Part shown: piece after piece, positions 31,799-61,608 of the stretch
Layout of the letters: each line of letters opens with the position of its first letter
How positions within the stretch are numbered: the stretch's first letter is position 1
Source of the DNA: Spirochaetota bacterium
GTDB lineage: Bacteria; Spirochaetota; Spirochaetia; Treponematales; UBA12059
Direction of reading: 5' to 3'
DNA: 64,000 nt
Assembly (NCBI GenBank): GCA_022703505.1
Contig: JAKLDN010000001.1
Location: 345,389 to 409,388, forward strand
Notes under the pieces: model-generated
Told to the model about the DNA's origin: nothing
What the model saw: the letters and a program-made list of their open reading frames with translations, nothing else
The model's database searches: none
Program-made: the position numbers and the translations under genes

Positions 31799-31799
31799 C

Positions 31800-39543: not shown

Positions 39544-39560
39544 CAAGACGTCTCCGAAGC

Positions 39561-39600: not shown

Positions 39601-39622
39601 ATGCCCGGGGAAAGGCGGAACC

Positions 39623-41465: not shown

Positions 41466-41484
41466 GGGCCCCGGTTCCCCTCCC

Positions 41485-43773: not shown

Positions 43774-43822
43774 TCCGGGGACCCCCGATCCGGGCGGCCC
43801 GGGAGTCGCGCGCTACCATGTC

Positions 43823-45132: not shown

Positions 45133-45173
45133 ATCCTTAGACGGCGCCTGTTTTACGCCGCCGGGGGATCGCC

Positions 45174-45626: not shown

Positions 45627-46615
45627 GTCGCGCGGCCACGGTCCGGGACATAGCCCGGGAAGCCGGGGTTTCCACGGCCACGGTGTCCCGCGCCCTGAAC
45701 GGGGATCCCCGCGTCCACGGAACGACCGCCTCGGCGGTGCGGGCCGCGGCAGACCGCCTGGGGTACTCGGTAAACCGGGCGGCTCGCAGCCTGAAGACCC
45801 GGTCGACCAGGATGGTCGGGGTGATAGCGCCGGACCTGGCTACGGATTTCTTCATGATCCTCGCGGACCGTCTCGAACGGGAGCTCGCCGCCGAGGGTTA
45901 CGACATGTTGATCGCCTCCTCGAGGGAGAGCGCGGCGGAGGAGGAGCGCCTGCTGGGCCTGTTCCCGGAGCACCTCGTGGACGGCATCGTCGCCATCCCG
46001 GCCACCGGGGAATCGGATCACTTCCGGCGCGCGATCGCCCGGGGCACGCCCCTAGTGCTGACGGACAGGGCTCCGGGGAACCCGGGCGCGGACGCCGTAC
46101 TCGTCGACAACGAGGGGGGGGCCCGGGAGGCGGTCCGGGCGCTGGCGGGGCTCGGCTACCGCAGAATCGGATTCGTGGGCGGAGACCTGCGTCTGACCAC
46201 GGCCCGGGAACGCTTCGAGGGTTACCGTACGGCCCTGGCCGGTCTCGGCATCCCCCCCGAACCGGAGTTCGAGCGGTTCGGTCCCATGCACATCGACGCG
46301 GGCTACGGCATGATGGACGAACTACTGGCCCTGCCGAACGCACCGGAGGCCTGGTTCGTGGTGAACGCGGACACCCATGTCGGGGCGACCAACCGGCTGT
46401 ACAAGGAACCGCCGGAGCGTAGGGAACGCGCCGCCTTGGCCGCCTTCGACGAGATGCCCTGGTCGCCCCTCCTCCGGTTCTGCCGGTTCGCGGTGGAACA
46501 GCCGGTGGGGGAGATGGGCAGGACGGCGGCGGGCTTCATCCTGGATCGAATCGAAGGCAGGGTCGGAGGGCGGCCCCGTACGGCGCGCCTGCCCACCCGG
46601 CTCATCCCGCATTGA
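45623..46615 (+). CDS. LacI-family transcriptional repressor
   Basis: 330 residues. The [26 protein letters not shown] and hinge helix [15 protein letters not shown] are followed by a periplasmic-binding-protein-like sensor domain (about 60-325: [65 protein letters not shown]). A GTG start overlaps the fucU stop, with GGAGG at good spacing. It is expected to bind the TGTAATCGATTACA sites at 45079-45132 and to be relieved by fucose or a fucose metabolite. Confidence 0.92.
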
Positions 46616-46647
46616 AAGGGCCGCCCGGAGCGGCGAAGGAGCAGGAC

Positions 46648-48468
46648 ATGGCGAATCTTGAAAGTCTGAAGCCCAGGCCGGCGGCGCGGAGGTTTCCCGG
46701 ACCGGCCCCCAAGATCGGTATCCGGCCCGCGATCGACGGGCGCCTCGGGGGAGTCCGGGAATCCCTGGAGGACGTGACCATGGGCATGGCCCGGGCCGCG
46801 GCCCGGTTGATCTCGGACAACCTGAGGCACCCCGACGGCACCCCGGTCGAGTGCGTCCTGGCGGACTCGACCATAGGAGGCGTCGCGGAGGCCGCGGCCT
46901 GCGCGGAGAAATTCTCGCGGGAGGGGATCCAGGTCACTCTCACCGTGAGCCCCTGCTGGTGCTACGGGTCGGAAACCATGGACATGGATCCCCTGACCGT
47001 CAAGGCGGTCTGGGGCTTCAACGGCACCGACCGTCCCGGGGCCGTCTACCTGGCGGCCGTCCTGGCGGCTCACAACCAGAAGGGCCTGCCCGCCTTCGGA
47101 ATCTACGGCCGGGACGTCCAGGATCTCAAGGACACGGGTTCCGTCCCGCCGGACGTGCGGGACAAGATCCTGCGCTTCGCCCGAGCCGGCCTTGCCGTCG
47201 CCTGGATGCGGGGAAAGTCATACCTGTCCATCGGGTCCGTCTCCATGGGGATAGCCGGTTCCATCGTCGATCCGGACTTCTTCCAGTCCTGGCTGGGCAT
47301 GCGGACCGAGTACGTGGACATGAGCGAACTCGTGCGCCGCTTCGAGGAGAAGATATATTCCGAGGCCGAATATCGCCGCGCCCTCGCCTGGGTCCGTGAA
47401 AACTGCCCGGAGGGATCCGACGTCAATCCGCCTTCGATACAGCATTCCCGGGCCCGCAAGGACAAGGCCTGGGAGACCAGCGTCAAGATGGCCCTGATCG
47501 TCCGGGACCTCATGGTCGGGAATCCCGAACTCCGGAGGAAAGGCCGGGGGGAGGAAGCCCTGGGGCACAACGCCATCCTGGCGGGCTTCCAGGGACAGCG
47601 CGCCTGGACGGACCACTTCCCCAACGGGGACTTCCTGGAAACCATCCTCAATTCCAGCTTCGACTGGACCGGGATACGACAGCCCTACCTGGTTGCCACG
47701 GAAAACGACTCCCTGAACGGGGCGGTCATGCTCTTCGGGCACCTGCTCACCGGGACGGCCCAGATATTCTCCGACGTGCGCACTTTCTGGAGTCCCGAGG
47801 CCGTGGAGCGCGTCACGGGCTGGAAGCCCGAAGGAGCCTCGGCGGGCGGTTTCATCCATCTCATCAATTCCGGGGCGACCACCCTGGACGGCACGGGCAG
47901 GCAGCGCCGGGACGGCAAGCCGGCTATGAAACCCTGGTGGGAAATCACGGCGGCGGAGGCCGGCGCCTGCCTTGACGCGACAAGCTGGAGGTACGCCGAC
48001 CTGGGCTACTTCCGTGGAGGAGGCTACTCCTCGGACTTCCTCACCGAGGGCGGCATGCCCGTGACGATGACCCGACTGAACCTGGCGGCCGGGGCGGGGC
48101 CCGTGCTTCAGATCGCGGAGGGCGTCACGGCCACCCTGCCTCAGCAGGTGCACGACAAGTTGGACAGGCGAACCAACGAAACCTGGCCCACCACCTGGTT
48201 CGTGCCGCGCCTGACGGGGAGGGGCCCCTTCCGGGACGTCTATTCGGTCATGGCCGCATGGGGAGCCAACCACGGGGCCGTGTGCTACGGCCACGTCGGG
48301 GCGGACTTCGCGGCCCTGGCGGCCGCCCTGCGCATCCCGGTCTGCATGCACAACCTCGAGGAGTCGTCCCTCTTCCGGCCGAGCTACTGGAACTCCTTCG
48401 GGATGGATCCGGAAGGCTCGGACTACCGGGCCTGCTCCGCCCTGGGACCTCTCTACGGCAGGAGGTGA
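46648..48468 (+). CDS. fucI: L-fucose isomerase
   Basis: 606 residues, close to the ~590 of E. coli FucI. It converts L-fucose to L-fuculose, needing Mn2+. Landmarks: [87 protein letters not shown] and [20 protein letters not shown]. The E and D residues of SEADYR-like and ENDS segments are the metal and acid-base positions in the family. AAGGAG precedes ATG 46648. No fuculokinase or fuculose-phosphate aldolase follows; a PfkB kinase and two DapA-type aldolases lie in the next operon. Confidence 0.95.
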
Positions 48469-48535: not shown

Positions 48536-48565
48536 TTGACAAGTCGGGGAGTACGGGTCTAAACT
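48536..48565 (+). promoter_or_regulatory. Promoter of the iclR gene
   Basis: TTGACA (48536-48541) and TAAACT (48560-48565), 18 bases apart. Between fucI and this promoter a 10-base-pair GC hairpin (about 48480-48508) may end the fuc transcript, though it lacks a T-run. Confidence 0.5.
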
Positions 48566-48614: not shown

Positions 48615-49391
48615 ATGAAACAGGTCCGATCCATCCAGCGGGCCCTCGAGATCGTCGACTCCTTCCGGCTCGGCCAGAGCAAGGGAGTCTCCGAGATCAG
48701 CCGCGAGATGGGGATACCCAAGAGCACGGCCCACGAGATCCTGGCCACCCTCGTCGAGGCGGGCGTCCTGGCCCGGGACGACGTAACCGGCCTATTCCAG
48801 CTGGGGACCAAGCTCATCGAGCTCGGGAACCGCGCCCGCTCGAACTACCCCCTAAACCGCGCCGCCGAACCCTTCATCAAGGCCCTTCGGGACGAATTCG
48901 ACGAGACGGTCTTCCTCACGCTGCTCGAACGGGACCAGGTCTTCTATCTCGACTGCTACGAATCCACCCGGCGGCTCCGGATCTTCTCGACCCTCGGAGA
49001 CCGGGCTCCCCTGTACTGCACTTCCCTGGGAAAGGCCATCCTCGCGGCTATGCCCCCGGACGAGCTGGATCGATACCTGTCCTCCGTCAAGCTTGAGCCC
49101 TTCACGGTGAACACCATCACGGACCCTGTCCTCCTCCGGGAGGACATCGAGCGAACGGCCCGGAGGGGCTACGCGGTGGACGACATGGAGCACGAGGAGG
49201 GGGTGCGCTGCCTGGGCGCGGCAATCCGCAACGAGGCAGGCCGACCGATAGGGGCCGTGAGCGTATCCGGCGCAGCCGGCCGGATATCCGGGGAACGGGA
49301 GGCGGAGATCGCCGTCCGGGTCGTGGCAGCGGCGGAGGGGACATCCAGGGCGATGGGGTACCGGCCCGGCGAGAGCCGGCAAAATCAATAG
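48615..49391 (+). CDS. IclR-family transcriptional regulator
   Basis: 258 residues. The winged HTH is VRSIQRALEIVDSFRLGQSKGVSEISREMGIPKSTAHEILATLVEAGVLARD. A GAF-like effector domain (about 75-250) contains the family segments LYCTSLGKAILA, GYAVDDMEHEEGVRCLGAAIRNEAG and IGAVSVSGAAGRI. It should respond to a small organic acid made or imported by the downstream TRAP operon. GAGG precedes the ATG. It is separated from dctP by 56 bases. Confidence 0.93.
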   Translation: MKQVRSIQRALEIVDSFRLGQSKGVSEISREMGIPKSTAHEILATLVEAGVLARDDVTGLFQLGTKLIELGNRARSNYPLNRAAEPFIKALRDEFDETVFLTLLERDQVFYLDCYESTRRLRIFSTLGDRAPLYCTSLGKAILAAMPPDELDRYLSSVKLEPFTVNTITDPVLLREDIERTARRGYAVDDMEHEEGVRCLGAAIRNEAGRPIGAVSVSGAAGRISGEREAEIAVRVVAAAEGTSRAMGYRPGESRQNQ

Positions 49392-49447: not shown

Positions 49448-50452
49448 ATGAAAAGACGAGTTTTCGTTCTGGTGATCGCGATCTTCCTGATCGCCGCCGC
49501 GGCCCTGTCCGCCCAGGACAAGACCTACACCATCCGTTTCAACACGGTAGCTAGCCCGAGCGACATCCAGGTGGAGGCGATGAACAAGTTCGCCGAGGTG
49601 GCGACGGCCCTGAGCGGCGGCAAGCTGGACGTCAAGGTCTTCCACTCCGGTCAGCTCGGGGACCAGAAGACCGCCCTGCTCGGGGTCATGAAAGGATCCC
49701 TCGAGATGGCCTGCGACGCGAGCCCGGCTTGGCTGGCGGACATCGGAAGTTATCCCGAGATCGGCGTCCTCGAGGTGGCCTACCTCTTCCGGGACATCGA
49801 CCACATGTACCGGGTGCTGAACGGACCGGTCGGGCAGAAGTACTGGGACACCCTGGCGGCGAAGTCGGGCATCCGGGTCCTGGACGCCTGGTACCTCGGC
49901 ACCCGCGAGCTCTCCCTCACCAAGAAGGCCGGCCCGGTTCGGACTCCCGCGGACCTCAAGCCCCTCAAGATCCGCTGGCCCAATTCCGAGGCGTGGCTGG
50001 ACGTGGGCCGCTCCCTCGGCGCCAACCCGACTCCCATGGGATTCGGCGAGGTCTACATGGCCCTCAAGACCGGAACCATCGACGGCCAGGACAACCCCAT
50101 CCCGACGAGCTACGCGGAGAAATTCCTCGAGGTCGCCCAGTACATCGTCCTGACGGACCACATGCTCGGCTACGTCACCCCGGTCATCAACGAGAAGCTC
50201 TGGAAGGAGATGCCCGAGAATTACCGCTTCTATATCAAGCAGGCCCTCACCGTGGCCCGGTTCTACATGAACCAGAAGGTCATGGAGGAGGAAGCGACGC
50301 TGATCGGCAAGGCCCAGAAGGAATACGGGATCCAGGTGATCGTGCCCGACAAAAAAGCCTTCATGGACAACGCCAAGAAGTACTATTCGGACCCGAAGTT
50401 CGCCAAGCGCTTCGGCGACGGGGCGTACGCGAAGATACAGGCGGTGGAATGA
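49448..50452 (+). CDS. dctP: TRAP transporter substrate-binding protein, DctP family
   Basis: 334 residues. Signal peptide MKRRVFVLVIAIFLIAAAALSAQ, then a DctP domain with FNTVASPSDIQVEAMNKFAEVATALSGGKLDVKVFHSGQLGDQ, the binding-arginine segment PLKIRWPNSEAW, and FGEVYMALKTGTIDGQDNPIPTSYAEKF. The ligand is a carboxylate, but residues differ from the uronate-type protein at 38566, so the two systems probably take up different acids. AGGAGG at 49432-49437 fixes the ATG at 49448. First structural gene after iclR. Confidence 0.92.
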   Translation: MKRRVFVLVIAIFLIAAAALSAQDKTYTIRFNTVASPSDIQVEAMNKFAEVATALSGGKLDVKVFHSGQLGDQKTALLGVMKGSLEMACDASPAWLADIGSYPEIGVLEVAYLFRDIDHMYRVLNGPVGQKYWDTLAAKSGIRVLDAWYLGTRELSLTKKAGPVRTPADLKPLKIRWPNSEAWLDVGRSLGANPTPMGFGEVYMALKTGTIDGQDNPIPTSYAEKFLEVAQYIVLTDHMLGYVTPVINEKLWKEMPENYRFYIKQALTVARFYMNQKVMEEEATLIGKAQKEYGIQVIVPDKKAFMDNAKKYYSDPKFAKRFGDGAYAKIQAVE

Positions 50453-50494
50453 GGCTTTCGCGGACCTGACGCGATAGACCGACCTTTGAATCGA

Positions 50495-50536
50495 GCGTCG
50501 CGGGCGACCGGTACAGTCACCGGCCGCCCGCGACGC
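50495..50536 (+). promoter_or_regulatory. Long intercistronic hairpin between dctP and dctQ
   Basis: A 12-base perfect stem (50495-50506 with 50525-50536) is continued by CCGGT/ACCGG (50508-50512/50519-50523) across a one-base internal mismatch, with a 6-base loop. No T-run follows. It mirrors the hairpin at the same place in the other TRAP cassette. Confidence 0.75.
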
Positions 50537-50553
50537 GACAGCCCGGAGGCACG

Positions 50554-51063
50554 ATGAAGCGAGCATTCAAGCAATTCCTCGACGCGGTGGAGGTATACAT
50601 CCCGGCTGCCGTTTTCGCCCTCCTCATCGCGAGCATCTTCATCCAGGTCGTCCTTCGATACGTCTTCAACTCCCCCAGCCCGGAACTCTTCGAGATATCG
50701 ATCTACGCCTTCGTCTGGGTCATCTACCTGGGCGGGGCCCTCGCCTCCCGCTACGACCAGCACATCCGGTTCGACCTGATCTACCGCGGCCTGAAGCGGC
50801 CCGCCCAGATCGTCGTCGATTTGGTCTTCAACCTCGCGACCCTCGGTATCCTTCTCTATCTCCTGGTGCCGAGCTTCCGCTACACCTTCGAGATGTACAA
50901 GATAAAGGCGTCTGCCCTGCGGATCCCCTGGACCTTTCTCCTGATCGTGTACCCCGTATTCATCCTCCTCGTGATCATCCACACCAGCACTACGACATAC
51001 CGCGGCGTCCGGGAACTCATGGGCAAGGGCCGGGCTCCCGAGGAGACTCCGCCATGGATATAG
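50554..51063 (+). CDS. dctQ: TRAP transporter small permease, DctQ
   Basis: 169 residues, four membrane helices. It contains the DctQ stretch VVLRYVFNSPSPELFEISIYAFVWVIYLGGALASRYDQHIRFDL. GGAGG precedes the ATG. The final 10 bases overlap dctM. Works with the DctM encoded next and the binding protein encoded upstream. Confidence 0.9.
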   Translation: MKRAFKQFLDAVEVYIPAAVFALLIASIFIQVVLRYVFNSPSPELFEISIYAFVWVIYLGGALASRYDQHIRFDLIYRGLKRPAQIVVDLVFNLATLGILLYLLVPSFRYTFEMYKIKASALRIPWTFLLIVYPVFILLVIIHTSTTTYRGVRELMGKGRAPEETPPWI

Positions 51064-52352
51064 CCGTAACCGTCTGGCTCGCCGTCTTCACCGTCAGCTT
51101 TCTCATGGGATACCCCTTCGGGTTCAGCATGTTCGCGAGCTCGACCCTCTACATCATCCTCAAGGGGATCGACATCACCACCGTGCTGGACATCATGGTG
51201 ATACAGTTCGAGACCAACTTCGTGCTCCTGGCGGTGCCCCTGTTCATCTTCTCCGCCAAGCTCCTGAACGCGTCCCTCCTCACGGACCGGCTCTTCGACT
51301 TCGCCAAGGTCCTGGTGGGCCCCCTGCCGGGAGGGCTGGCCCACGTGAATATCGTAAACAGCATGATCTTCGCGGGCATGTCCGGATCCGAGATCGCGGA
51401 CGTGGCGGGTCCCGGCCAGATGGAGGTCCGGGCGATGGAGAAGGCCGGGTTCGACCGCCCCTTCAGCTGCGCGGTCTCGGCATCCTCGGCCACGATAGGC
51501 CCCATCATCCCGCCTTCCATCCCGATGGTGATCTACGCGATGATCTCCGGGGCCTCCGTCGGCTACCTCTTCCTGGGGGGCTTCCTCCCCGGAGTGCTCC
51601 TGGGGTTCTGCCTCATGATCGGGGTCTACATCGTGTCGATCCGGAGGAAATATCCGGTGGGCCGGTGGTATACGTTCCGGGAGATCCTCGCGACGACGAA
51701 GACGTCCTTCCTCATCCTGCTGGCTCCCGCGATCCTGCTCCTGGGCATCTACACCGGGATTTTCACACCCACCGAAGCCGCGGCGGTGGTCTGCGTGTAC
51801 TCCTTGGTCCTCAGCCTGGCGGTCTACCGGACGGTTAACCTCAAGGGGCTTTTCAAGCTCCTCGTGGAGAGCGTGGCCGCGGCGGGCTTCACCAGCTTCA
51901 CCATAGGCGGCGCCTTCCTGTTCGGGTACGTCCTGGCCCGGGAGGAGATCCCGGCCAAGATAGCCGAGTTCTTTCTCTCCCTGGGGATCTCGGGCAGCCC
52001 GGCCCTCACCCTCCTTTCCATCAACGTGCTTTTCCTCATTCTAGGATGCTTCGTGGACGTCTCCGTGTCGCTGCTCATCGTGGTGCCCCTCATCCTCCCG
52101 GTTGTGGAGGCGGCCGGCATCGACCTGGTCCACTTCGGCGTCGTGGTCACCTTGAACCTCATGATAGGACTGTCCACACCGCCCTTCGGGGAGGCGGTGT
52201 TCATCATTGCCCGGGTGACCGATACGCCCCTGGGCGCCGTGTTCAAGGAGATGTGGCGCTTCATCGGCTTCATGATCCTGGCCCTGATGCTCATCAGCGT
52301 GTTCCCGGACATCGTGCTGTTCGTACCCCGCCTTGCCGGGTACCAAGGATAA
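51054..52352 (+). CDS. dctM: TRAP transporter large permease, DctM
   Basis: 432 residues, about 12 membrane segments. It includes VPLFIFSAKLLNASLLTDRLFDFAKVLVGPLPGGLAHVNIVNSMIFAGMSGSEIADVAGPG, IGPIIPPSIPMVIYAMISGASVGYLFLGGFLPG and MIGLSTPPFGEAVFI. GAGGAG precedes the ATG. The next gene begins 3 bases after its stop. Confidence 0.94.
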   Translation: MDIAVTVWLAVFTVSFLMGYPFGFSMFASSTLYIILKGIDITTVLDIMVIQFETNFVLLAVPLFIFSAKLLNASLLTDRLFDFAKVLVGPLPGGLAHVNIVNSMIFAGMSGSEIADVAGPGQMEVRAMEKAGFDRPFSCAVSASSATIGPIIPPSIPMVIYAMISGASVGYLFLGGFLPGVLLGFCLMIGVYIVSIRRKYPVGRWYTFREILATTKTSFLILLAPAILLLGIYTGIFTPTEAAAVVCVYSLVLSLAVYRTVNLKGLFKLLVESVAAAGFTSFTIGGAFLFGYVLAREEIPAKIAEFFLSLGISGSPALTLLSINVLFLILGCFVDVSVSLLIVVPLILPVVEAAGIDLVHFGVVVTLNLMIGLSTPPFGEAVFIIARVTDTPLGAVFKEMWRFIGFMILALMLISVFPDIVLFVPRLAGYQG

Positions 52353-52355
52353 CCT

Positions 52356-53561
52356 ATGGAAACGGACGAAAGATTCATCGACGCCCTCCGGGAGGGACTC
52401 GACGAGGAGACAAGGGCCCGTACCGACCGGGTGGCCGATACGGCCGCGAAAATCAAGGAGCGGGGCGGGAAGATCGCCGTGGTCACCGGCAGCGGACCCA
52501 ACCTCCACGAGGGGGTGACGACCCTCCTGGCGGAGTTCATCCGCCTGGGCGTGGTCGACGGGGTCCTCACCTCCTCGGCCGTGGTGGCCCACGAGATGGC
52601 CGGAGCCCTGGACGAGGTGAAGCGTGTCCCCGGATCCGCCGTGGGAATCCCCCCGGAGCTGCTCCCCAAGGGAGGGATCTTCGAGGCGAGCCTCCTTCGG
52701 CCCGGCGACCTGGATCGGATCTCCCGGGAGATGGTCCTGGACCGCGGCCTGATCGACCGGGTACTGGCCGCGGAAGGCAGGGTCATCATCAAGGCCGCGG
52801 GCAACATGGCCTATCCCGTGGGTCTCCGGACCGAGCGGCTCGCGATGGAGATCGAGAGCCTGGCGGACCTCCATGGTCTGCCCTTCGAGCGGGCGGCCGG
52901 CCTGGGCGCCGACCCCCGCACGATGATCGGCGCCGGGGCGGCGGCGGGCGTTCCCGTCCTGGTCACCGTGCCCCAGCTGGTGGGCGGGGGCATGGTCGGC
53001 CTGGCCGTGGGCGACTCGATCCCCCTTAAGCGGCGCTCCGAACTGGTGTCCCGCATCCTGGGAGGCGCGGACCTGATCATCGAGAGCGGCATCGCCCTTT
53101 CCCAGGAGATCCACGACGGCCCCTTCGAAACCTACACGGGGCACGGAATCTGGAGCCGTTGGGAGGGCTCTCCGACCTACAGTCTGGCGGGCAAGACCCT
53201 GGTTCGCATCGACCTGGACCCGAACCTGGAGCGGGTCTGGAGGATCGAGCGGGAGGGGGCCTCGGTCCAGGGAGCCGTGGACCAGGGCCTCCCGAAGACC
53301 AAGACCTTCAAGGTACCGTTCCGCATGGAGATGTCGGGCTTCGCCCGCCTGGAGGGCAGCCTTCCCCTCGTGGGGGACCTTGGCATTCTCTGGCCGGTCA
53401 TCGCCCTGGGAATAGCCCGGCGGCTCGGCCTCAAGCCGGAGTTCATGTCCTATCCCCAGGAATCCGAGCCCGGCAAACGCATGAGGAGGTGGATCGTGGA
53501 CGAGGTGGGGATCCTGGACCGGGACCGGATGCTCGCGGGGCTCCGGGAGGCGCGGCCGTGA
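52356..53561 (+). CDS. Unrecognised protein with Rossmann-like N-terminal half
   Basis: 401 residues that I cannot assign. A first strand-loop-helix reads KIAVVTGSGPNLHEGVTTLLAEFI (39-62), followed by LGVVDGVLTSSAVVAHEMAGALDEV (65-89). That strand-turn pattern recalls deoxyhypusine-synthase-like NAD folds but is not diagnostic. A glycine-rich GAGAAAGVPVLVTVPQLVGGGMVGLAVGD follows at 191-219, then IIESGIALSQEIHDGPFETYTGHGIWSRWEG with possible active-site His and Glu. No membrane helix or signal peptide. AAGGA precedes the ATG. It is tightly packed between dctM (3 bases) and the kdsB-like gene (GTGA overlap), so it almost certainly acts on the substrate taken up here. Confidence 0.6.
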   Translation: METDERFIDALREGLDEETRARTDRVADTAAKIKERGGKIAVVTGSGPNLHEGVTTLLAEFIRLGVVDGVLTSSAVVAHEMAGALDEVKRVPGSAVGIPPELLPKGGIFEASLLRPGDLDRISREMVLDRGLIDRVLAAEGRVIIKAAGNMAYPVGLRTERLAMEIESLADLHGLPFERAAGLGADPRTMIGAGAAAGVPVLVTVPQLVGGGMVGLAVGDSIPLKRRSELVSRILGGADLIIESGIALSQEIHDGPFETYTGHGIWSRWEGSPTYSLAGKTLVRIDLDPNLERVWRIEREGASVQGAVDQGLPKTKTFKVPFRMEMSGFARLEGSLPLVGDLGILWPVIALGIARRLGLKPEFMSYPQESEPGKRMRRWIVDEVGILDRDRMLAGLREARP

Positions 53562-54295
53562 ACGGGATCGTCGGCGTCATACCCGCCCGGTACGCCTCCA
53601 CCAGGCTTCCGGGGAAACCCCTGGCGGATATCCTCGGAAAGCCCATGATACGCCGGGTCTACGAGTCGGCGGCTCGAGCGCGGGTGCTGGACAGGCTCCT
53701 GGTGGCGACCGACGACGAGCGCATCGCCATGGTCGTCCGGGCCTTCGGGGGGGAGGCCGTCCTGACATCCCCGGACCACCCCTCCGGCTCGGACCGGATA
53801 GCGGAGGCGATACGAGATGTCCGGGCGGACATCGTCGTGAACATCCAGGGCGACGAGCCCTTCGTCTCGCCGACCATGATCGAGGAGGCGGTCCGTCCCC
53901 TCCTCGAAGATCCCACCCTTCCCATGAGCACCCTCATGCACGAGATCCCCGAGGAATCCTTCGGGGACCCGAACGTGGTGAAGGTCGTCGTGAACCTCCG
54001 GGGCGAGGCCCTTTACTTCTCCCGCTCCCTCATCCCCTTCCCGCGGAAGAGGGACGGCCATCGGGCCTACGAGCACGTGGGCATCTACGCCTATCGCGCC
54101 GAATTCCTGAGGACCTTCACGCAGCTCCCTCCCTCGCCCCTGGAGCGGTTCGAGAGCCTTGAGCAGCTCCGGGTTCTGGAGAACGGATACCGCCTGAAGG
54201 TCGTGGAGACCCGGGCGCCGGACTACGTCCCCCTTAGCATCGACACCGTCGAGGACCTCGAGCGGGCCCGCAAGCTCGCGGAGAAGCTCGGGTAG
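53558..54295 (+). CDS. kdsB: 3-deoxy-manno-octulosonate cytidylyltransferase-like enzyme
   Basis: 245 residues, the normal KdsB length. Motifs: VGVIPARYASTRLPGKPL (CTP-binding loop), SPDHPSGSDRIAEA, VNIQGDEPFVSP with catalytic Asp, and HVGIYAYRAEFL near the end. Known members transfer CMP from CTP to Kdo or 8-amino-Kdo for lipid A core synthesis. Here the gene is embedded in a TRAP/aldolase catabolic-looking operon, so the acceptor may be a different 3-deoxy-ulosonic acid. A GTG start overlaps the previous stop and has GGGAGG upstream; the longer open frame above is shadow of the preceding gene. Confidence 0.85.
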   Translation: MNGIVGVIPARYASTRLPGKPLADILGKPMIRRVYESAARARVLDRLLVATDDERIAMVVRAFGGEAVLTSPDHPSGSDRIAEAIRDVRADIVVNIQGDEPFVSPTMIEEAVRPLLEDPTLPMSTLMHEIPEESFGDPNVVKVVVNLRGEALYFSRSLIPFPRKRDGHRAYEHVGIYAYRAEFLRTFTQLPPSPLERFESLEQLRVLENGYRLKVVETRAPDYVPLSIDTVEDLERARKLAEKLG

Positions 54296-54372
54296 CGTCC
54301 GCCGGGCGGCGGACCGTACATCGCGTGAAACGGGCCCGGGCGGGCCCGGCATACTATGGTTAGGAGAATCGG

Positions 54373-55431
54373 ATGCTGAAGCTTGACGAGAAGCTCCTTG
54401 CGGCTAACAAGGAGACCGAAATCCTCTCCGCCTACATCGCGGCGGATCGAATCGAGGCGGGGCTCGCGGAGAACCGGGAAGTCTTCGACGACCTGGCGGC
54501 CTACATCCGGTCCTGCCGCCCGGACCGCCTCGTCTTCGTGGGCAGCGGCGCCTCCTGGTGCTCCCTGTACACGGGGTTCTGGTTCCTCAGATCCTCGAGC
54601 TCCCTGCCGGTCCTCCACTTCTTCGGCCCGGAACTCGTTGCCGACGATCCTCCGGTCCTCCGGGAAGGCCGGACCCTGGCCATCCTCTCCTCGTATTCAG
54701 GAAAGACCGCCGACACCCTGGCGGCGAGCGAATTCCTGGGTGCCCGGGGCATACCCCGGATCGCCTTGAGCAAGGATCCGGGAGGTCCCCTGGCCCGGTC
54801 GTGCGAGCGCGTGCTCGCCTACGGGGACAAGTGCCTGTACACTTCGGCCATGGCCAACCTCCTTTCCCTCCTGGGAGCGTACCTCCGGCTCCGTGGGGAG
54901 GAATCCCAGGCGGAGGGGATGCTCGCCGACCTGGCACGGATCCCCGACCTGATGCGCGGCTCCCTCCGCAAGGCGGAGGAACGGGCCATGGCGGCCCTCG
55001 AGCCCCTGGCCGGGGACGACTTCTTCTACGTCCTCGGGGACGGAGCCCTCTGGGCCCTGGCCTACCAGTACGGCTACACCAACCTTACGGAGTACTCGAG
55101 GGTCAACGCGGCCTGCCTCCGGGCCTGCGAGTGGAGACACGGCCCCCTGGAGGTCCTGTTCCGGAAACCCGCGATGGTCCACTTCATAGGGAACGACAGG
55201 ACACGGGCGTATTCCCTGGCCACGAAGGAATACTGCGCCGCGAACGGCGCGCGGCTCGCGGTCTTCGACGTGGACGACTACTACCGCGTCCATCCCGCCC
55301 TGGCCCCCTTCGTCCTCCATCCTGTAAGCCAGTTCTTCCTCCTATACCAGAGCACCCAGCGAGGGATCGACATGGACGACTACCTCCAGATGCACGTGAA
55401 GCCCTACCTTCCGGGAGAGACGTACTTCTGA
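54373..55431 (+). CDS. SIS-domain sugar isomerase/deglycase, FrlB-like
   Basis: 352 residues with two SIS domains. Loop 1 is VFVGSGASWCSLYTGFW (52-68) and loop 2 SSYSGKTADTLAASEFL. A C-terminal RACEWRHGPLEVL and GIDMDDYLQMHVKPYLPGETYF tail resembles fructoselysine-6-phosphate deglycase and related enzymes. It should act on a phosphorylated amino-sugar or glycated substrate. TAGGAG precedes the ATG. The gap of 77 bases upstream is the widest within this cluster. The TGA overlaps the next ATG by one base (TGATG). Confidence 0.82.
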   Translation: MLKLDEKLLAANKETEILSAYIAADRIEAGLAENREVFDDLAAYIRSCRPDRLVFVGSGASWCSLYTGFWFLRSSSSLPVLHFFGPELVADDPPVLREGRTLAILSSYSGKTADTLAASEFLGARGIPRIALSKDPGGPLARSCERVLAYGDKCLYTSAMANLLSLLGAYLRLRGEESQAEGMLADLARIPDLMRGSLRKAEERAMAALEPLAGDDFFYVLGDGALWALAYQYGYTNLTEYSRVNAACLRACEWRHGPLEVLFRKPAMVHFIGNDRTRAYSLATKEYCAANGARLAVFDVDDYYRVHPALAPFVLHPVSQFFLLYQSTQRGIDMDDYLQMHVKPYLPGETYF

Positions 55432-56390
55432 TGGGCGATTTCAAGGGCGTTTACGCGGCGATGCTCACCCCCCTCGGCGAGGGCGGGGCGGCACCGTCCG
55501 CCCGTACCGTCGAGTCCTATTGCCGGTTCCTCCTGGAACGGGGCGTGTCCGGGCTCTTCCCCCTGGGCACCACGGGCGAATGGCCCCTCCTCCGGGAGGA
55601 GGAGCGCATGCGGATCGCCGAACTCGTCGTGGGATCCGCGAAGGCGTGGCGGGACGACCCTGCCCGCGGAGCTCGGCCGGGTGCGGACTCCGGTCCGGCC
55701 AAGGTCATCGTGCACGCCGGCGCCGACTCTACCGACGAGACTGTACGCCTCTGCCGACACGCACGCGGCATCGGCGCGGACGCGGTCGGGGTCATCTGCC
55801 CGCCCTATTACCCCCTGAACGAGGAAGCCCTCCGTTTCCATTTCATTACCGCCGCCCGGTCCGTGCCCGACCTGCCGTTCTTCGTATATTTTATCCCGTC
55901 CCTGGTCCGCTGCGACATGACCCCGGCTCTGCTCCTGAATCTCGCCCGGGAAGCGGACAACATCGTAGGCCTCAAGTACTCCGGGGAAAGCATCCCGCGC
56001 TTCCGGGAATACCGGCGCGTCCTGGGACCCTCGTTCTCCCTGTTCATCGGCGACGACAACCACGCCCTCCCGGGCCTGAGGGAGGGCGCCGATGGCATCG
56101 TGTCGGGTAACGCCTCGGCCATGCCCGAGCTCCTGGTCGACCTCTACAGGAGTTTCCGGGCCGGCGAGGACGAGGCCGCGACGGAAGCCCAGCGGGAACT
56201 GGACGACTTCATCGCGGGGATAGACGGACGTGCCGAGCTGTCGTCCTTCAAACGAATCCTGGGCATCCGGGGAGTTCCGGCCGGAGAGGTACGGCGCCCC
56301 CTCAATCCCCTCTCCCCCGACGGATCGGAGGCACTCGCCGCGCGAATCCGCCGCCTCGAGGAAAGGAACAAGGCAAGGAAACCACTATGA
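55431..56390 (+). CDS. Dihydrodipicolinate synthase/NanA-family aldolase
   Basis: 319 residues forming a TIM barrel of the DapA superfamily. Seen: GVYAAMLTPLGEGGAAPS, the GTTGEWPLL pyruvate-binding loop, VYFIPS with the catalytic tyrosine, and IVGLKYSGES with the Schiff-base lysine. An insertion of about 15 residues (DDPARGARPGADSGP) lies before the third strand. These enzymes make or cleave 2-keto-3-deoxy acids using pyruvate. With kdsB, PfkB and a second DapA homologue in the same cluster, a keto-deoxy sugar acid is the likely intermediate. Confidence 0.9.
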   Translation: MGDFKGVYAAMLTPLGEGGAAPSARTVESYCRFLLERGVSGLFPLGTTGEWPLLREEERMRIAELVVGSAKAWRDDPARGARPGADSGPAKVIVHAGADSTDETVRLCRHARGIGADAVGVICPPYYPLNEEALRFHFITAARSVPDLPFFVYFIPSLVRCDMTPALLLNLAREADNIVGLKYSGESIPRFREYRRVLGPSFSLFIGDDNHALPGLREGADGIVSGNASAMPELLVDLYRSFRAGEDEAATEAQRELDDFIAGIDGRAELSSFKRILGIRGVPAGEVRRPLNPLSPDGSEALAARIRRLEERNKARKPL

Positions 56391-57388
56391 GCGAAACCAT
56401 ATTCCTCACCGGCGCGTCCGGCAGGATCGGCGGCAGGGTCGCGGCCGGCCTCCTCGAGAGGGGCTACAAGGTCCGCGCCCTGATCCACTCGAACCGGGGG
56501 AATCTCCCGGACGGCTCCGGCCTGGTGACCCTGGAAGGGGACATCGTAACCCGGAAGGGTTTGGCGGAGGGAGTCGAAGGCGCGGACTTCGTGATCCACC
56601 TGGCGGCGGCCTGGGACATGTTCCCTCCGGCCCGGTACGAGGCCACGAACGACCAGCTCTTCGAGAGCGTCCTCCGGGGCACCTACAACGTCCTGGAAGC
56701 GGCCCGGTCCGTCCGGGGGCTCCGGGCCCTGGTCTACGCCTCCACCGACGCGGTCTACGCCACGGGACCCCGGAAATTCGAGGCTCCGATCACGGAGGAC
56801 ACGGAGCTCCAGCCCTCCCGCTTCTACGCCCTGTGCAAGATCGCCTGCGAGACCCTCTGCAGGCAATACGGAAGGCTCTACGGTCTCCCCTGGATCGTGG
56901 TCAGGATATGCTGGTCCCTCGAACCCGCGGAGCTGCTCCGAGTCTTCGGCTACGACTTCTGGGAAGGCGGGATGTCCGAGGAGGACCGGGCGCGACTCAA
57001 GCCCATCCTCGGGGGCGAGAAGGGGGTCTTCGCCCCCCTCAACGAGGACGGAAGTTCGGGGGTCGACCACATCGCCGATCCCGACGACATCGCCGCGGGA
57101 ATCGTCCAGGCCGTGGTCAACCACGACAAGGGCCTGGGTGGAACCTTCAACCTCGCGGGTCCCGCACCCTTCCGGTACCTCGAGGTGATCGAAAAGCTCG
57201 CCGCGGACCTGGGCGTCCCCTGGGGTTCCGCTAGGATACCCGGGATCCATCCCTACGAGCTCCGGAACGACAGGGCGATCCGGACGCTGGGCTATGCCCC
57301 CGCCTGGACCATGGAGAGAATGCTCGAAAAGGCGGCGGCCGCGCGCCGAACCGCAGCCGGGAAGAACCCGGCGGGAGGAACGACATGA
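56387..57388 (+). CDS. NAD-dependent sugar epimerase/dehydratase
   Basis: 333 residues of the extended SDR family. Rossmann loop IFLTGASGRIGGRVAAGLLERG, then VIHLAAAWD, STDAVYA near 120 as the Ser/Thr region, and YALCKIACE as the catalytic YxxxK. The C-terminal part handles the sugar or sugar acid. It may epimerise or oxidise the free or CMP-linked substrate. The ATG overlaps the upstream stop by 4 bases and its own TGA overlaps the next ATG, so it is tightly coupled. Confidence 0.88.
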   Translation: MSETIFLTGASGRIGGRVAAGLLERGYKVRALIHSNRGNLPDGSGLVTLEGDIVTRKGLAEGVEGADFVIHLAAAWDMFPPARYEATNDQLFESVLRGTYNVLEAARSVRGLRALVYASTDAVYATGPRKFEAPITEDTELQPSRFYALCKIACETLCRQYGRLYGLPWIVVRICWSLEPAELLRVFGYDFWEGGMSEEDRARLKPILGGEKGVFAPLNEDGSSGVDHIADPDDIAAGIVQAVVNHDKGLGGTFNLAGPAPFRYLEVIEKLAADLGVPWGSARIPGIHPYELRNDRAIRTLGYAPAWTMERMLEKAAAARRTAAGKNPAGGTT

Positions 57389-58401
57389 AAGCGGCCGTAC
57401 TGTACGGCAAGGGAGATCTGCGCATGGAGGATCGGGGCGTCCCCGTCCCGGGAGCCGGCGAGGTCCTGGTCAGGATACGGGCCTGCGGAGTCTGCGGGAC
57501 CGACGCGGCCCTCTTCCGGGGGGAATACCCGGCGGCCTTCCCCGTGGTCATCGGACACGAGTTCTCCGGGGAGGTCGCGGCCCTCGGCAAGGACGTCGGC
57601 GGCTTCAAGGTCGGAGACCGGGTGACCGCGGACCCGAACGTCCTGTGCGGATCCTGCGGATACTGCCGGGGGGGCCTGGGGCACCTCTGTTCCCGGGTAA
57701 GCTCCATGGGGGTCCATCGGGACGGCGCGGACGCCGAATACGCCCTGGTCCCCGCGGTCAACCTCTACACCTTCCCCGAGACCCTCGCCTTCGAGGAGGC
57801 GGCCTTCACGGAGCCCCTGGCCTGCGCGGTGCACGGAGTCGACCTGGCCGGGGTGCGCACAGGTGACACGGTGCTCGTCCTGGGAGCCGGCGGGATGGGC
57901 AACCTCATAGCCCAGCTGGCGCGGCTTTCCGGAGCCGCCCGGGTGGTGGTTAGCGAGCCCATCGCCATGCGCAGGGACCGGGCCCTGGAGAACGGAGCCA
58001 CGGACGCGATCGATCCCGGGGCCGGGGACGTCGGGGAGGCTCTCCGGCGGATCAACCCCCTGGGCGCCGACGTTGTCTTCGAGGTGGCCGGCCACGTCGG
58101 CCTCCAGGCCCAGGCTGTCCGGCTGGCCCGCAAGGGGGGGACGGTGGTCTGGTTCGGCGTGGCTCCGCCGGACAAGGTCGCCGAGGTCTCGCCCTTCTAC
58201 GTCAACGAGAACGAAATTCGGATCCTCGGATCCTACAACAATCCCTTCGCCACCGACCGGGCCGTGAAGCTCCTCGCGGAGCGCCGGATCCGGGTGGACA
58301 ACCTCATCACCCACAGGATAGCCCTCGGGGACTACCCGAAGGCCCTGTCCCTGTTCGGCGGCCGGGATACGGTCAAGCTCATGGTGACGATGGGCGCATG
58401 A
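57385..58401 (+). CDS. Zinc-dependent alcohol/sugar dehydrogenase
   Basis: 338 residues of the medium-chain dehydrogenase family. Zinc ligands appear in CGVCGTD and IGHEFSG. Structural-zinc cysteines are CGSCGYCRGGLGHLC, and the NAD loop is VLGAGGMGNLIAQL. It is different in sequence from the dehydrogenase at 22126. It probably oxidises a secondary hydroxyl of the pathway intermediate. Both ends overlap neighbouring genes by 4 bases (ATGA). Confidence 0.9.
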   Translation: MKAAVLYGKGDLRMEDRGVPVPGAGEVLVRIRACGVCGTDAALFRGEYPAAFPVVIGHEFSGEVAALGKDVGGFKVGDRVTADPNVLCGSCGYCRGGLGHLCSRVSSMGVHRDGADAEYALVPAVNLYTFPETLAFEEAAFTEPLACAVHGVDLAGVRTGDTVLVLGAGGMGNLIAQLARLSGAARVVVSEPIAMRRDRALENGATDAIDPGAGDVGEALRRINPLGADVVFEVAGHVGLQAQAVRLARKGGTVVWFGVAPPDKVAEVSPFYVNENEIRILGSYNNPFATDRAVKLLAERRIRVDNLITHRIALGDYPKALSLFGGRDTVKLMVTMGA

Positions 58402-59372
58402 TGGAACGGATCGTCGATATCGTCGGCAACCTCAACATGGACCTGATCCTTCGGGGGATCCCCGAGATGCCGGCCTGGGGCCGGGAGGTCTTCGGGAACG
58501 ACTGCCTTCTGGTCCCCTCGGGGCAGGCCGGATACACGGCCCTGGCCCTCGGCGCCCTGGGGGTGCCCGTCCGGGTGCACTCGGTACTCGGCGGGGACCC
58601 CTGGGGCGATTCCATCCTGGCCGCCCTGGACGGTTCCGGCGCCGACGTTCGGGGGATCGAGCGTGCCGCGGGGACCCGGACGGGCCTATCCGTCGCCCTG
58701 GTGCGCGGCGACGGGGAACGGGCCTTCGCCTCGTACTACGGATCCCTGGCGGCTTTCGACGCCCAGGCCCTGGGGCGGCTCCATCCGGGGATCCGCGGGC
58801 GGGGCGCCCTCCTGGTCTGCGGGATCAACGCCCTGCCCAACCTGCCCCTCGACGCGGTCGAGGAAATCTGCCGCGACTACCGAGGGAGCGGGGGCCTAAC
58901 GGCCCTCGACACGGGCTGGGATCCCCTGGGCTGGGGGCCGGAACGCCTCGCGGGCCTCAGGCGTCTCCTCCGGGAAATCTCGGTGTTCATCCCGAACGAG
59001 GAAGAGGCCCGGGCGATGACGGGGTTCGAGGAGCCCGAGGAGCAAGCCAAGGCCCTCCTCGGCTTCGGCGCCGGGCTCGTGGTCATCAAGCTGGGTCCCC
59101 GCGGCTGCTACGCGGCAGGCGGCGGAAGCGCGGAACGCCTACCGGCGTTTCCCGCCGAGGTCCTCGACGCCGTGGGCGCGGGGGACGTTTTCAATGCCGG
59201 ATTCCTGGCCGCGACGCTCTCGGGCCGTTCCCTGCGGGAGCGGATGGCCTACAGCTCCGCGGCAGCCTCGATCTATATTTCCCGGGCCGAGAATCGGTAT
59301 CCGTCGGCCCGGGAGACCGCGGCCGTGGCGGAATCCCTCGGCGCGCCCGGAGCTGTAAAGGAAGGCACATGA
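58398..59372 (+). CDS. PfkB-family carbohydrate kinase
   Basis: 324 residues, ribokinase fold. IVGNLNMDLILRGIPEMP and GQAGYTALALGALGVPV form the N-terminal sugar-binding lid. IPNEEEARAMTG and LVVIKLGPRGCYA are in the middle. The C-terminal signature DAVGAGDVFNAGFLAATLSG holds the catalytic Asp. It transfers phosphate from ATP to a sugar or keto-deoxy acid; 2-keto-3-deoxygluconate kinase or a fuculokinase-like role are both possible here. Overlaps both neighbours by 4 bases. Confidence 0.9.
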   Translation: MMERIVDIVGNLNMDLILRGIPEMPAWGREVFGNDCLLVPSGQAGYTALALGALGVPVRVHSVLGGDPWGDSILAALDGSGADVRGIERAAGTRTGLSVALVRGDGERAFASYYGSLAAFDAQALGRLHPGIRGRGALLVCGINALPNLPLDAVEEICRDYRGSGGLTALDTGWDPLGWGPERLAGLRRLLREISVFIPNEEEARAMTGFEEPEEQAKALLGFGAGLVVIKLGPRGCYAAGGGSAERLPAFPAEVLDAVGAGDVFNAGFLAATLSGRSLRERMAYSSAAASIYISRAENRYPSARETAAVAESLGAPGAVKEGT

Positions 59373-60229
59373 TCGATTTTCACACACATCCCGTGATGAT
59401 CAAGGAACTCGTCGAGGCCGATCCGGATTTCGGCAGAGCGGTACGGGAGGTCTTCGGCCTGCTGTTCCCGCCCCAGCCCCTCGAGATCCTGCGCCGGGAG
59501 ATGGACGCCGCCGGCATTGAGAGGGCCGTGATCCTGGCCCTCGACCTAAGCACGGCCCACGGCTGCCGGGTGCCGGACAACGAGACCGTCGCCCGGCTCG
59601 CGGAGTCAGAACCCCGCCTCATCGGCTTCGCATCCGTGGACCCCAACCTGCCGGACGCCGCGGAGCGTCTGGACGGGGCGGTGCGGCGGCTCGGCCTCCG
59701 GGGGCTCAAGCTCGACCCGTCCCTGCAGCGCTTCGATCCCGGAGACCGGAGTAGGGCCTACCCCCTCTACCGCCTGGCCGGGGAGCTCGGGATCCCCGTC
59801 CTGCTCCACGCCGGGATGAGCTGGGCGCCCCCCGGGGTCTCGCGCCTTTCCCGGCCCGTCCTGCTCGAGGAGGCCCTGTCGGACCATCCGGGTACTAATT
59901 TCGTATTGGCCCATTTCGGCTGGCCCTGGACGGACGAAGCCCTCATGCTGGCGCTGAAGCACAGGAACCTCTACCTGGACACCTCGGTCGTCTACGCGAG
60001 GACTCCCGCGGAGACCTTACGGAAGGTCGTGGCGGAGCACATCGGCCTGCCGGTGCTGGAGGGCAGCCTCCCGGACAGGATCCTCTTCGGCTCGAACTAC
60101 CCGCGCCAGGACATGCGCCGCGCCGCACGGGGCATCGCCTCCCTGGGCTTCTCCCCGGGACTCCTCGAGGCGATCACGCGGGGCAACGCCGCCCGGCTCC
60201 TCGGGCTCGAAACGGAGGCGCGGCCATGA
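59369..60229 (+). CDS. Amidohydrolase-family metal-dependent hydrolase
   Basis: 286 residues of the amidohydrolase_2 class. It opens MIDFHTHP with the HxH metal site (His4, His6), followed by GFASVDPNLP, GLKLDPSLQRF, LLHAGMSW and FVLAHFGWPWTDEAL with further metal histidines, and ILFGSNYPRQD with the final Asp region. In sugar clusters such proteins are often lactonases (for example fuconolactonase) or decarboxylases. AAGGA precedes the ATG. Coupled to both neighbours by 4-base overlaps. Confidence 0.85.
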   Translation: MIDFHTHPVMIKELVEADPDFGRAVREVFGLLFPPQPLEILRREMDAAGIERAVILALDLSTAHGCRVPDNETVARLAESEPRLIGFASVDPNLPDAAERLDGAVRRLGLRGLKLDPSLQRFDPGDRSRAYPLYRLAGELGIPVLLHAGMSWAPPGVSRLSRPVLLEEALSDHPGTNFVLAHFGWPWTDEALMLALKHRNLYLDTSVVYARTPAETLRKVVAEHIGLPVLEGSLPDRILFGSNYPRQDMRRAARGIASLGFSPGLLEAITRGNAARLLGLETEARP

Positions 60230-60675
60230 TCAGCCACCTCAAACGGTTCACGATCCTCACCCGGAAAGAGACGGAGATCATCGACATCACCCCCTCCGTC
60301 CTGGAGACGGTCGCCGCTTCCGGAGTCTGGTCGGGCACGGTCTTCGTGCTCTCCCTCCACACCACCACGGGCTTCTACGTGAACGAGGGCCTCCCGGACC
60401 TGGAGCGGGACATGGCGGACTTCCTGGCCCGCCTGGTCCCCGAGGATCATCCCTACCGGCACGCCCGGTTCCTCCACTCCGACGGGCAGATGGCCATCAA
60501 CGCCCCTTCCCACCTCCGAGGCACGATGCTGGGTTTCCAGGCCTTCTTCCCCGTCGAGGAAGGCAAGCTCGTCCGCGGCGGCAGGCAGACCATGTATCTA
60601 GCGGAACTCGACGGCCCGCAGGAGCGGACCTATGTCGTCCAGGTTACGGGCGAGGCCCGGGGAGGTGAAGCATGA
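60226..60675 (+). CDS. YjbQ/UPF0047 family protein
   Basis: 149 residues. The UPF0047 pattern is clear: EIIDITPSVLETV, VFVLSLHTTTGFYVNEGLPDLERDMADFL with conserved His and Glu, and a SDGQMAINAPSHLRGTMLG block whose histidine completes the putative metal site. It ends GRQTMYLAELDGPQERTYVVQV. E. coli YjbQ has weak thiamine-phosphate synthase activity; the true role is unsettled. Its presence within a sugar-acid operon between an amidohydrolase and an aldolase argues for a carbohydrate-related reaction here. Confidence 0.9.
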   Translation: MISHLKRFTILTRKETEIIDITPSVLETVAASGVWSGTVFVLSLHTTTGFYVNEGLPDLERDMADFLARLVPEDHPYRHARFLHSDGQMAINAPSHLRGTMLGFQAFFPVEEGKLVRGGRQTMYLAELDGPQERTYVVQVTGEARGGEA

Positions 60676-61586
60676 CCGAGCCTAAATGGGCGGAGGGCCT
60701 GGAAGGCGTGATCGGCGCCCTGGCGGTTCCGATGTTCGAGGACGGTAGCATCGACTACTCCCTCCTGGAGAAGCAGGCCGCCTACTACGGCGGATCCGGC
60801 GTCCGGGGCTTGTTCCTGGGCGGGACGAACGGCGAAGGAGCCTACCTGACCACGGAGGAGAAGGCCCACATCCTCAAGACCGTCCGGGGAGCCGTCCCGA
60901 AGGACAAGATCCTCTGCGCGGCCTGCATCCGTCCCTCTACCCGGGAAGTCCTGGCGGAGATGAGGGTCCTGGGAGCTCTCGGGCCGGACTACATCGTCGC
61001 CGTGGCCCCCTACTATCTGGCAGTCGACCAGGAGGCCATCATCCGGCATTTCCGCACCCTCGCGGCGGCCTCCCCGGCTCCCCTCATCCCGTACAACATC
61101 CCCCAGAACACCCACAACCCCATGAGCCTGAAGACCATCCAGGAGCTCGCGTCCATTCCGAACATCGCGGGGATCAAGGATTCTTCGGGCGACTTCATAT
61201 CCTTCACCCGCGGAGTGCTCGGTCCCCTGCCCGGCCCCTTCACTTGGATCCAGGGGGAGGATCTTCTGGACGCCCCCTCCTACCTCATCGGCGCCAAGGC
61301 GGTGGTGACCGGGCTGTCCAACGTCTCCGTGGAACCCTATGTGGACATGTGGAGGGCCGCGACGGCCGGGGACACGGAGGGAGTGAAGGCCGGCCAGCGG
61401 CGGATAAACGAGATGTTCAAGATCGTCCTGGCCGTCGGCGGAAAAGGCATCCCCGCCATCAAAGCCGCCATGGAACTCCTGGGCCGGGGAAGTCGACATC
61501 TTCGACTCTCCGCGCTCACCCTGGACGACGCCGAAGTAGAAGCCGTGCGGGAGACGCTCGTCGGGATGGGGTTGCTGCGCAGGTAG
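60672..61586 (+). CDS. Second DapA/NanA-family aldolase
   Basis: 304 residues. TIM barrel of the DapA family: GVIGALAVPMFEDGSIDYSLL, FLGGTNGEGAYLTTEEK, PYNIPQNT with the catalytic tyrosine, and IAGIKDSSGDF with the Schiff-base lysine. Unlike the enzyme at 55431 it has GGTNGE in place of GTTGE and no insertion, so the two are distinct members rather than a recent duplication. It likely cleaves a 2-keto-3-deoxy acid to pyruvate and an aldehyde. GGAGGTG precedes the ATG. Last gene of the cluster; the repeat array begins 23 bases after its stop. Confidence 0.9.
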   Translation: MTEPKWAEGLEGVIGALAVPMFEDGSIDYSLLEKQAAYYGGSGVRGLFLGGTNGEGAYLTTEEKAHILKTVRGAVPKDKILCAACIRPSTREVLAEMRVLGALGPDYIVAVAPYYLAVDQEAIIRHFRTLAAASPAPLIPYNIPQNTHNPMSLKTIQELASIPNIAGIKDSSGDFISFTRGVLGPLPGPFTWIQGEDLLDAPSYLIGAKAVVTGLSNVSVEPYVDMWRAATAGDTEGVKAGQRRINEMFKIVLAVGGKGIPAIKAAMELLGRGSRHLRLSALTLDDAEVEAVRETLVGMGLLRR

Positions 61587-61608
61587 CCCGGGTCTCCCGG
61601 CCGTCCCA

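Follow-up and report, generated by a model that had tools for sequence, protein, structure and literature searches.

A stretch of 64,000 nucleotides from the genome of the Spirochaetota bacterium GCA_022703505.1 (contig JAKLDN010000001.1; the whole stretch is called the window here, and the genome G000) carries a thirteen-gene operon that is real, conserved and composed of two modules: an importer with an uncharacterised protein, a KdsB-type CMP-ulosonate synthetase and a DapA-type lyase, and a set consisting of a SIS-domain protein, a PfkB kinase, an amidohydrolase (AmHy) and YjbQ. The uncharacterised protein, which we labelled U401 (Table 1), is the product of the key gene of the cluster: the interest of the operon lies in a widespread, unnamed enzyme family that is tied to KdsB and to Kdo (3-deoxy-D-manno-octulosonic acid). 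The recurrence of the U401-kdsB pair in many phyla suggests that Kdo metabolism may include a step not yet described.

Conservation of the operon

The initial annotation had described thirteen mostly overlapping genes behind iclR, one of them for an unknown protein, and this description holds: thirteen co-directional open reading frames (ORFs) occupy positions 49448-61586 after iclR and are translated without internal stops, and nine of the 12 junctions are overlaps of 1-10 bases. The gene family names given at the time agree with Pfam and NCBIfam (CTP_transf_3/KdsB, SIS, two DHDPS, Epimerase, ADH_N/ADH_zinc_N, PfkB, Amidohydro_2, UPF0047/YjbQ), and U401 is indeed below every cut-off in these two libraries.

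When U401 was used as query against the named genomes, at least 322 relatives were found, of which 80 were kept. Two loci from other metagenome-assembled genomes (MAGs) of Spirochaetes, L014 and L015, have all 13 genes and iclR, with 54-83% protein identity (73-76% for U401); wherever the gene order can be resolved, it is unchanged. In L015, dctP and dctQ have reading frames that overlap on one stretch, and dapA2 is split in two. As both loci carry the complete set, the linkage is far beyond chance, and the possibility that the genes are not kept together elsewhere, raised with the initial annotation, is not supported by this search. Partial sets are found at L013 (genome G172; TRAP-U401-KdsB-DapA1-Epi, while a separate contig has SIS, YjbQ and a fragment of AmHy; TRAP stands for tripartite ATP-independent periplasmic transporter), at L018 of Aerophobetes (IclR-TRAP-U401-KdsB-DapA) and at L075 of Anaerolinea (Chloroflexi), where ZnADH-SIS-U401-KdsB-DapA is followed by ATP-binding cassette (ABC) transporter genes and PfkB-AmHy-YjbQ is on the opposite strand. 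L012 combines U401-KdsB-DapA with an ADP-ribosylglycohydrolase and ABC genes. In L010 and L011, U401-KdsB adjoins IclR-TRAP-URO-D-like-DapA2-sulfatase; the URO-D-like protein and the sulfatase could indicate a methylated or sulfated ulosonate. The U401 family is rare within the class (five of 198 genomes), and in each of these five its neighbours include KdsB, a DapA-type gene and genes for an importer. On contig G172:C73 (L008, L009, L013), U401 and DctM are split into several pieces in overlapping frames and the Epi match has unresolved residues, probably all contig errors.

U401 and KdsB in two genomic contexts

Neighbours were counted at 84 U401 loci, within 4 kb of U401 (near, 558 kb searched) and beyond 5.5 kb (far, 394 kb searched). 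KdsB was found 48 times near and once far (0.086 versus 0.0025 per kb); the near/far counts were 13/0 for WaaA, 12/1 for the SSF symporter, 16/3 for BNR proteins, 9/2 for DapA and 9/0 each for KdsA and KdsD. At the level of whole genomes, KdsB was found in 53 of the 54 that have U401.

In Synergistaceae, the gene order is LpxI-LpxB-MsbA-LpxK-KdsA-KdsD-WaaA-U401-KdsB, and this arrangement among genes for lipopolysaccharide (LPS) ties U401 to Kdo. WaaA is also near U401 in a Halanaerobiales bin, in two other Bacillota bins and in a deltaproteobacterial bin. The second context joins U401 and KdsB to importers of the TRAP, SSF or ABC type, and BNR proteins or a DapA-type lyase frequently accompany them: the core importers are TRAP in the window, L010, L011, L013-L015 and L018, SSF in L019 and L090, and ABC in L012 and L075. 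That the importer type varies while KdsB, U401 and the lyase stay suggests that these enzymes act on the compound imported. No partner other than KdsB is shared by both contexts and by nearly all genomes; U401 therefore most likely either makes the KdsB substrate or uses the KdsB product.

The BNR proteins near U401 carry a BNR_2 domain; considered as GH33 Kdo hydrolases, they did not reveal the sialidase arginine triad in the alignment. At four Bacteroidales loci (L084, L085, L091, L092), U401 is downstream of a conserved gene of about 600 amino acids that looks like a glutaminyl-tRNA synthetase by sequence impression; each of these genomes has a single KdsB, located elsewhere than U401.

KdsB in genomes lacking KdsA and WaaA

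The window KdsB scores above the cut-offs of NF003952 (319 bits, cut-off 193) and TIGR00466 (223 bits, cut-off 155), and below that of the equivalog model NF003948 (254 bits, cut-off 281); it has the motifs IPARY and NIQGDEP and the Asp of SIDT. It is the only canonical KdsB-family gene of the genome. The sole other CTP_transf_3 gene was rejected as a second KdsB, being SpsF-like by sequence. All 48 U401-linked KdsBs examined have a glutamate at position 172, preceding a conserved histidine; canonical KdsB copies have mostly Lys, Arg or Gln at this position, the five PDB enzymes in the alignment either Lys or Arg. In a midpoint-rooted tree the U401-linked KdsBs are mostly outside the canonical clade, and together these sequence features may point to a different KdsB substrate.

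WaaA is present in 44 of the 54 U401 genomes; those without it are the seven spirochaetes tested, Aerophobetes G200, Anaerolinea G201 and the planctomycete G231. The seven spirochaetes (which include G000), G200 and G201 are the genomes with the importer-and-lyase version, and none of these nine has a KdsA over cut-off: eight have matches to the KdsA model of 104-130 bits, which are probably DAHP (3-deoxy-D-arabino-heptulosonate 7-phosphate) synthases, and one has none. In G000, the best KdsA match has 119 bits (cut-off 314) and there is no match to PF04413 (WaaA). Transferases of the KpsC/KpsS type (PF05159) are absent from eight of the nine genomes, G000 included, and G201 has two weak matches. 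The completeness of G000 is estimated at 98.5%, thus a chance gap for KdsA and WaaA is unlikely. Lacking both, the KdsBs of these nine genomes cannot serve the ordinary Kdo-LPS route, and the window KdsB has neither a de novo Kdo supply nor a known Kdo transferase to serve. The initial annotation had found a nucleotide activation step hard to explain in this cluster; with kdsB retained in nine importer-type genomes that have neither KdsA nor WaaA, the puzzle is genuine.

Two side observations concern KdsB copies in other groups. Synergistaceae have a second KdsB (L095, positions 4646-7803, and L096), followed in L095 by genes for an Fe-ADH and a DegT aminotransferase; we take this set to be like KdnB/KdnA, the Shewanella genes for Kdo8N (8-amino-8-deoxy-Kdo). 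The Hydrogenedentota genome G223 (L040, L098-L100) has WaaA and three KdsBs, no KdsA and no KdsC match, and several other Hydrogenedentota have no KdsC over cut-off; the G223 pattern reflects either MAG gaps or Kdo salvage.

Predicted fold of U401

The AlphaFold model of U401 has a pLDDT of 92.8 and a pTM of 0.93. VIA-align superimposed it on the ornithine cyclodeaminase (OCD) domain of ArgZ/AgrE with a Z-score of 17.5 (rmsd 3.1, 213 residues) and on deoxyhypusine synthase (DHS) with a Z-score of about 16 (rmsd 3.6-4.0, 250-260 residues), with 10-18% identity in these structural alignments. U401 is thus predicted to have the DHS/ornithine cyclodeaminase fold; both are NAD-binding folds. Homology in sequence is faint but consistent: TIGR00300 matches only residues 23-83 of U401 (E-value 6e-7; 28.6 bits versus a cut-off of 410.8), and the DHS model PF01916 recovers the U401 genes of four genomes with E-values from 3e-5 to 8e-4. 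As the profile-profile comparison of U401 with DHS by hhalign is weak (E-value 0.026), the likeness to DHS rests on the fold. The family has no name in the libraries searched, and a plasmid search with U401 gave no match.

The family is strongly conserved: 77 positions are invariant across 60 sequences that come from many phyla and share 53-76% identity with the window copy. Many of these are charged, which fits an enzyme with a polar, anionic substrate. We considered U401 as a stand-in for the Kdo-8-P phosphatase KdsC and rejected this: KdsC is over cut-off in 33 of the 54 U401 genomes, among them nearly all Synergistaceae, Bacteroidales and Planctomycetes tested.

Two separable modules

A megaplasmid of Niallia taxi has SIS-AmHy-YjbQ-fructoselysine 6-kinase (the kinase with 313 bits, cut-off 247) together with an amino-acid ABC transporter and without kdsB, U401 or dapA; genome G046 has AmHy-YjbQ-FrlD-like kinase. 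As SIS, amidohydrolase, YjbQ and FrlD-type kinase co-occur in Niallia without the other genes, the two modules are separable. The second module resembles gene sets for fructosamine use; with 65.5 bits for the window SIS (FrlB cut-off 430) and 58.6 bits for the window PfkB (FrlD cut-off 247), both far below these cut-offs, its substrate may differ. The original proposal of a coupled operon by which a carboxylated sugar is taken up and utilised is supported; its single linear route, from lactone opening through oxidation and phosphorylation to aldol cleavage, gives way to two modules.

A possible pathway and its alternatives

Our preferred reading, which we hold tentatively, is that the operon imports and uses an external 3-deoxy-2-ulosonic acid of the Kdo type by way of a CMP-ulosonate made by KdsB, with U401 acting on this ester or on its precursor. 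Its basis is observed: the genes and the way they are linked, the fact that KdsB, U401 and DapA recur alongside unrelated importers, and a genome that has neither KdsA nor WaaA. The substrate, the chemistry of U401 and the reaction order, as we infer them, would be as follows. The TRAP transporter would take up the sugar acid and KdsB would turn it, or its product, into the CMP ester. U401, whose relatives' fold binds NAD, would act on the ester or supply the KdsB substrate, with epimerisation or transient oxidation as its likeliest chemistry. DapA1 would split the ulosonate into pyruvate and an aldose, and SIS, kinase, dehydrogenase, amidohydrolase and YjbQ would process the leftover fragment, perhaps with an amine or a lactone. 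D-arabinose from Kdo cleavage could pass through FucI (D-arabinose to D-ribulose), although fucI is not a conserved neighbour. The retained KdsB motifs and DapA Schiff-base lysines support this route; for DapA1, GTTGE and the lysine of GLKYS are kept in seven of seven aligned sequences. An N-acetylneuraminate lyase (NAL)-family lyase can form Kdo from pyruvate and D-arabinose (PMC4016182).

Several points weigh against this reading. CTP would not be needed for a plain aldolase to cleave Kdo, which leaves the activation step without a proven purpose, and members of the DapA family have a wide range of functions. In many Bacteroidales, U401 lacks a KdsB next to it. U401 appears to have no lysine at the motif that matches the catalytic Lys329 of human DHS, in a C-terminal half where the alignment is weak, and its NAD binding is a prediction from the fold of its relatives. 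The second module is fructosamine-like, and a plain Kdo route has no need of it.

CMP-ulosonates are normally donors for transferases. In the Leloir pathway, nucleotide activation permits epimerisation, and a breakdown via CMP-ulosonate would resemble it: KdsB would make the CMP ester, U401, as a new enzyme of the DHS fold, would rearrange the sugar on the nucleotide, and the sugar, once released, would be cleaved by a DapA-type lyase. We regard this more specific scheme as doubtful; if it were true, the U401 enzymes encoded in LPS operons of other phyla would use the same reaction to tailor CMP-Kdo. We are aware of no catabolic pathway with a CMP-sugar as intermediate; the CMP-sugars known to us are donors in glycan synthesis.

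The main rival is salvage into a glycan, which we consider somewhat unlikely: a ready-made ulosonate would be imported, activated by KdsB with U401 adjusting it, and put on a surface glycan by an unrecognised transferase, with DapA removing what is in excess, a role like that of NanA alongside the scavenging of sialic acid. This would leave KdsB in its normal role of feeding a transferase, and in G223, which has WaaA and three KdsBs without a KdsA or KdsC match, KdsB-U401 lies beside an SSF symporter and BNR proteins. However, G000 and the other eight importer-type genomes have no GT30 (WaaA) transferase and, the weak G201 matches apart, none of PF05159; the operon itself is without a glycosyltransferase, and most of its genes look catabolic. 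It is unlikely, too, that KdsB activates another acid (an epimeric, amino- or methyl-ulosonate) that U401 makes or alters, with Kdo not being a substrate. Glu172, the position of the U401-linked KdsBs in the tree and the sulfatase and URO-D-like genes of related loci would fit such an acid; but in Synergistaceae the same KdsB type accompanies KdsA, KdsD and WaaA, the setting in which the Kdo enzyme would be expected, and it is the other copy that is beside the Kdo8N-type genes, and in the Bacteroidales G212 and G214 the U401-linked KdsB is the sole KdsB found while WaaA is present. That the locus serves mainly fructosamines (Amadori products), with a SIS deglycase, PfkB, amidohydrolase and YjbQ as the active part and kdsB, U401 and dapA as neighbours with another job, is improbable: the gene sets of Niallia and G046 suggest it, but the window SIS and PfkB score too low for FrlB and FrlD, the SIS module is tied to dapA1, epi and dapA2 through four-base overlaps, and in L075, from another phylum, SIS-U401-KdsB-DapA stays together.

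Gene layout and neighbouring features

The coordinates of the operon genes, iclR and fucI are given in Table 1. From the 5' end, the junctions are a gap of 101 bp between dctP and dctQ, an overlap of 10 bases between dctQ and dctM, a gap of 3 before U401, an overlap of 4 between U401 and kdsB, a gap of 77 between kdsB and SIS, an overlap of 1 base between SIS and dapA1, and six 4-base overlaps thereafter. A promoter-like TTGACA-18-TAAACT precedes iclR (48536-48565), with the count of such sites in the region not above chance.

Table 1. Genes of the operon and associated genes in the window
Gene	Position (strand)	Assignment	Evidence
fucI	46612..48468 (+)	L-fucose (D-arabinose) isomerase homologue, upstream	Fucose_iso N1, N2 and C domains
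iclR	48615..49391 (+)	IclR-type regulator	ORF; also ahead of TRAP genes in L010, L011, L014, L015, L018
dctP	49448..50452 (+)	TRAP substrate-binding protein	L014/L015 homologues 81-83% identical
dctQ	50554..51063 (+)	TRAP small membrane subunit	ORF; homologues in relatives' loci
dctM	51054..52352 (+)	TRAP large membrane subunit	ORF; homologues in relatives' loci
U401	52356..53561 (+)	Uncharacterised; predicted deoxyhypusine synthase/ornithine cyclodeaminase fold	Conserved partner of kdsB or waaA
kdsB	53558..54295 (+)	KdsB-type CMP-ulosonate synthetase	NF003952 above cut-off; Glu172
SIS	54373..55431 (+)	SIS-domain phosphosugar isomerase/deglycase-like (FrlB/NagB-II/GlmS type)	SSYSGKT and EWRHGP motifs
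dapA1	55431..56390 (+)	DHDPS/NAL-family Schiff-base lyase	GTTGE and GLKYS lysine
epi	56387..57388 (+)	NAD-dependent sugar epimerase/dehydratase (extended short-chain dehydrogenase/reductase)	Retained in L013, L014, L015
ZnADH	57385..58401 (+)	Zinc-dependent sugar/polyol dehydrogenase	Retained in L014, L015, L075
pfkB	58398..59372 (+)	PfkB-family sugar kinase (ribokinase-like)	Pfam/NCBIfam
AmHy	59369..60229 (+)	Amidohydro_2 amidohydrolase (lactonase or amidase-like)	In 3 of 198 genomes of the class
yjbQ	60226..60675 (+)	YjbQ/UPF0047	TIGR00149, 103 bits, above cut-off
dapA2	60672..61586 (+)	Second DHDPS-family lyase	Pfam/NCBIfam; alignment

FucI is a possible member of the pathway; since the region upstream of IclR in L015 yielded no homologue, it was not counted as a conserved member. 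A FucU-like gene adjoins a LacI gene upstream of fucI, and positions 30851-46615 of the window look like a hexuronate-type island that includes a further TRAP system (38.5-41.5 kb), both by sequence impression. The operon is followed immediately by a 130-bp tandem repeat (61608-62142; 4.1 copies, 98% match), beyond which lies a MATE-type gene.

Relation to known systems

Close parallels include the sialic-acid nan/sia loci, with a TRAP or SSF importer, the NanA lyase and a kinase, and a CMP-sialate synthetase encoded elsewhere: the window operon likewise combines an importer for a carboxylated sugar, a lyase of the DapA/NAL type, a kinase, a SIS-type enzyme and a CMP-ulosonate synthetase. Unlike in these loci, the synthetase is KdsB-type rather than NeuA-type, U401 has no counterpart there, no NanE or NagA was seen in the operon, and the genome has no known Kdo transferase. 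The NanA models are not reached either (84-94 bits for DapA1 and 86-103 bits for DapA2, cut-offs 281-382). Kdo-LPS biosynthesis (KdsD-KdsA-KdsC-KdsB-WaaA) shares KdsB and, in Synergistaceae, an operon with U401; in contrast, G000 lacks KdsA and WaaA and has an importer and lyases instead. With DHS and the ArgZ/AgrE ornithine cyclodeaminase, U401 shares the predicted fold and an N-terminal nucleotide-loop region, but it differs in its Kdo-linked gene context and in scores far below the family cut-offs. The fructoselysine (frl) and fructose-asparagine (fra) loci have a SIS deglycase-like gene and a PfkB kinase, and AmHy and YjbQ accompany FrlD-type kinases in Niallia and G046; the window differs by its low FrlB and FrlD scores and by the addition of kdsB, U401 and dapA.

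As the initial annotation had stated, no characterised pathway with this gene set is described in the literature searched, and searches of open-licence papers for Kdo breakdown, for kdsB with TRAP and for DHS-like proteins with kdsB gave no such pathway either; as a negative, this is weak evidence. The U401 reaction, once found, would show how bacteria use Kdo from LPS or from plant and algal walls, on which the literature searched has almost nothing at the gene level, and would fill a gap in Kdo metabolism.

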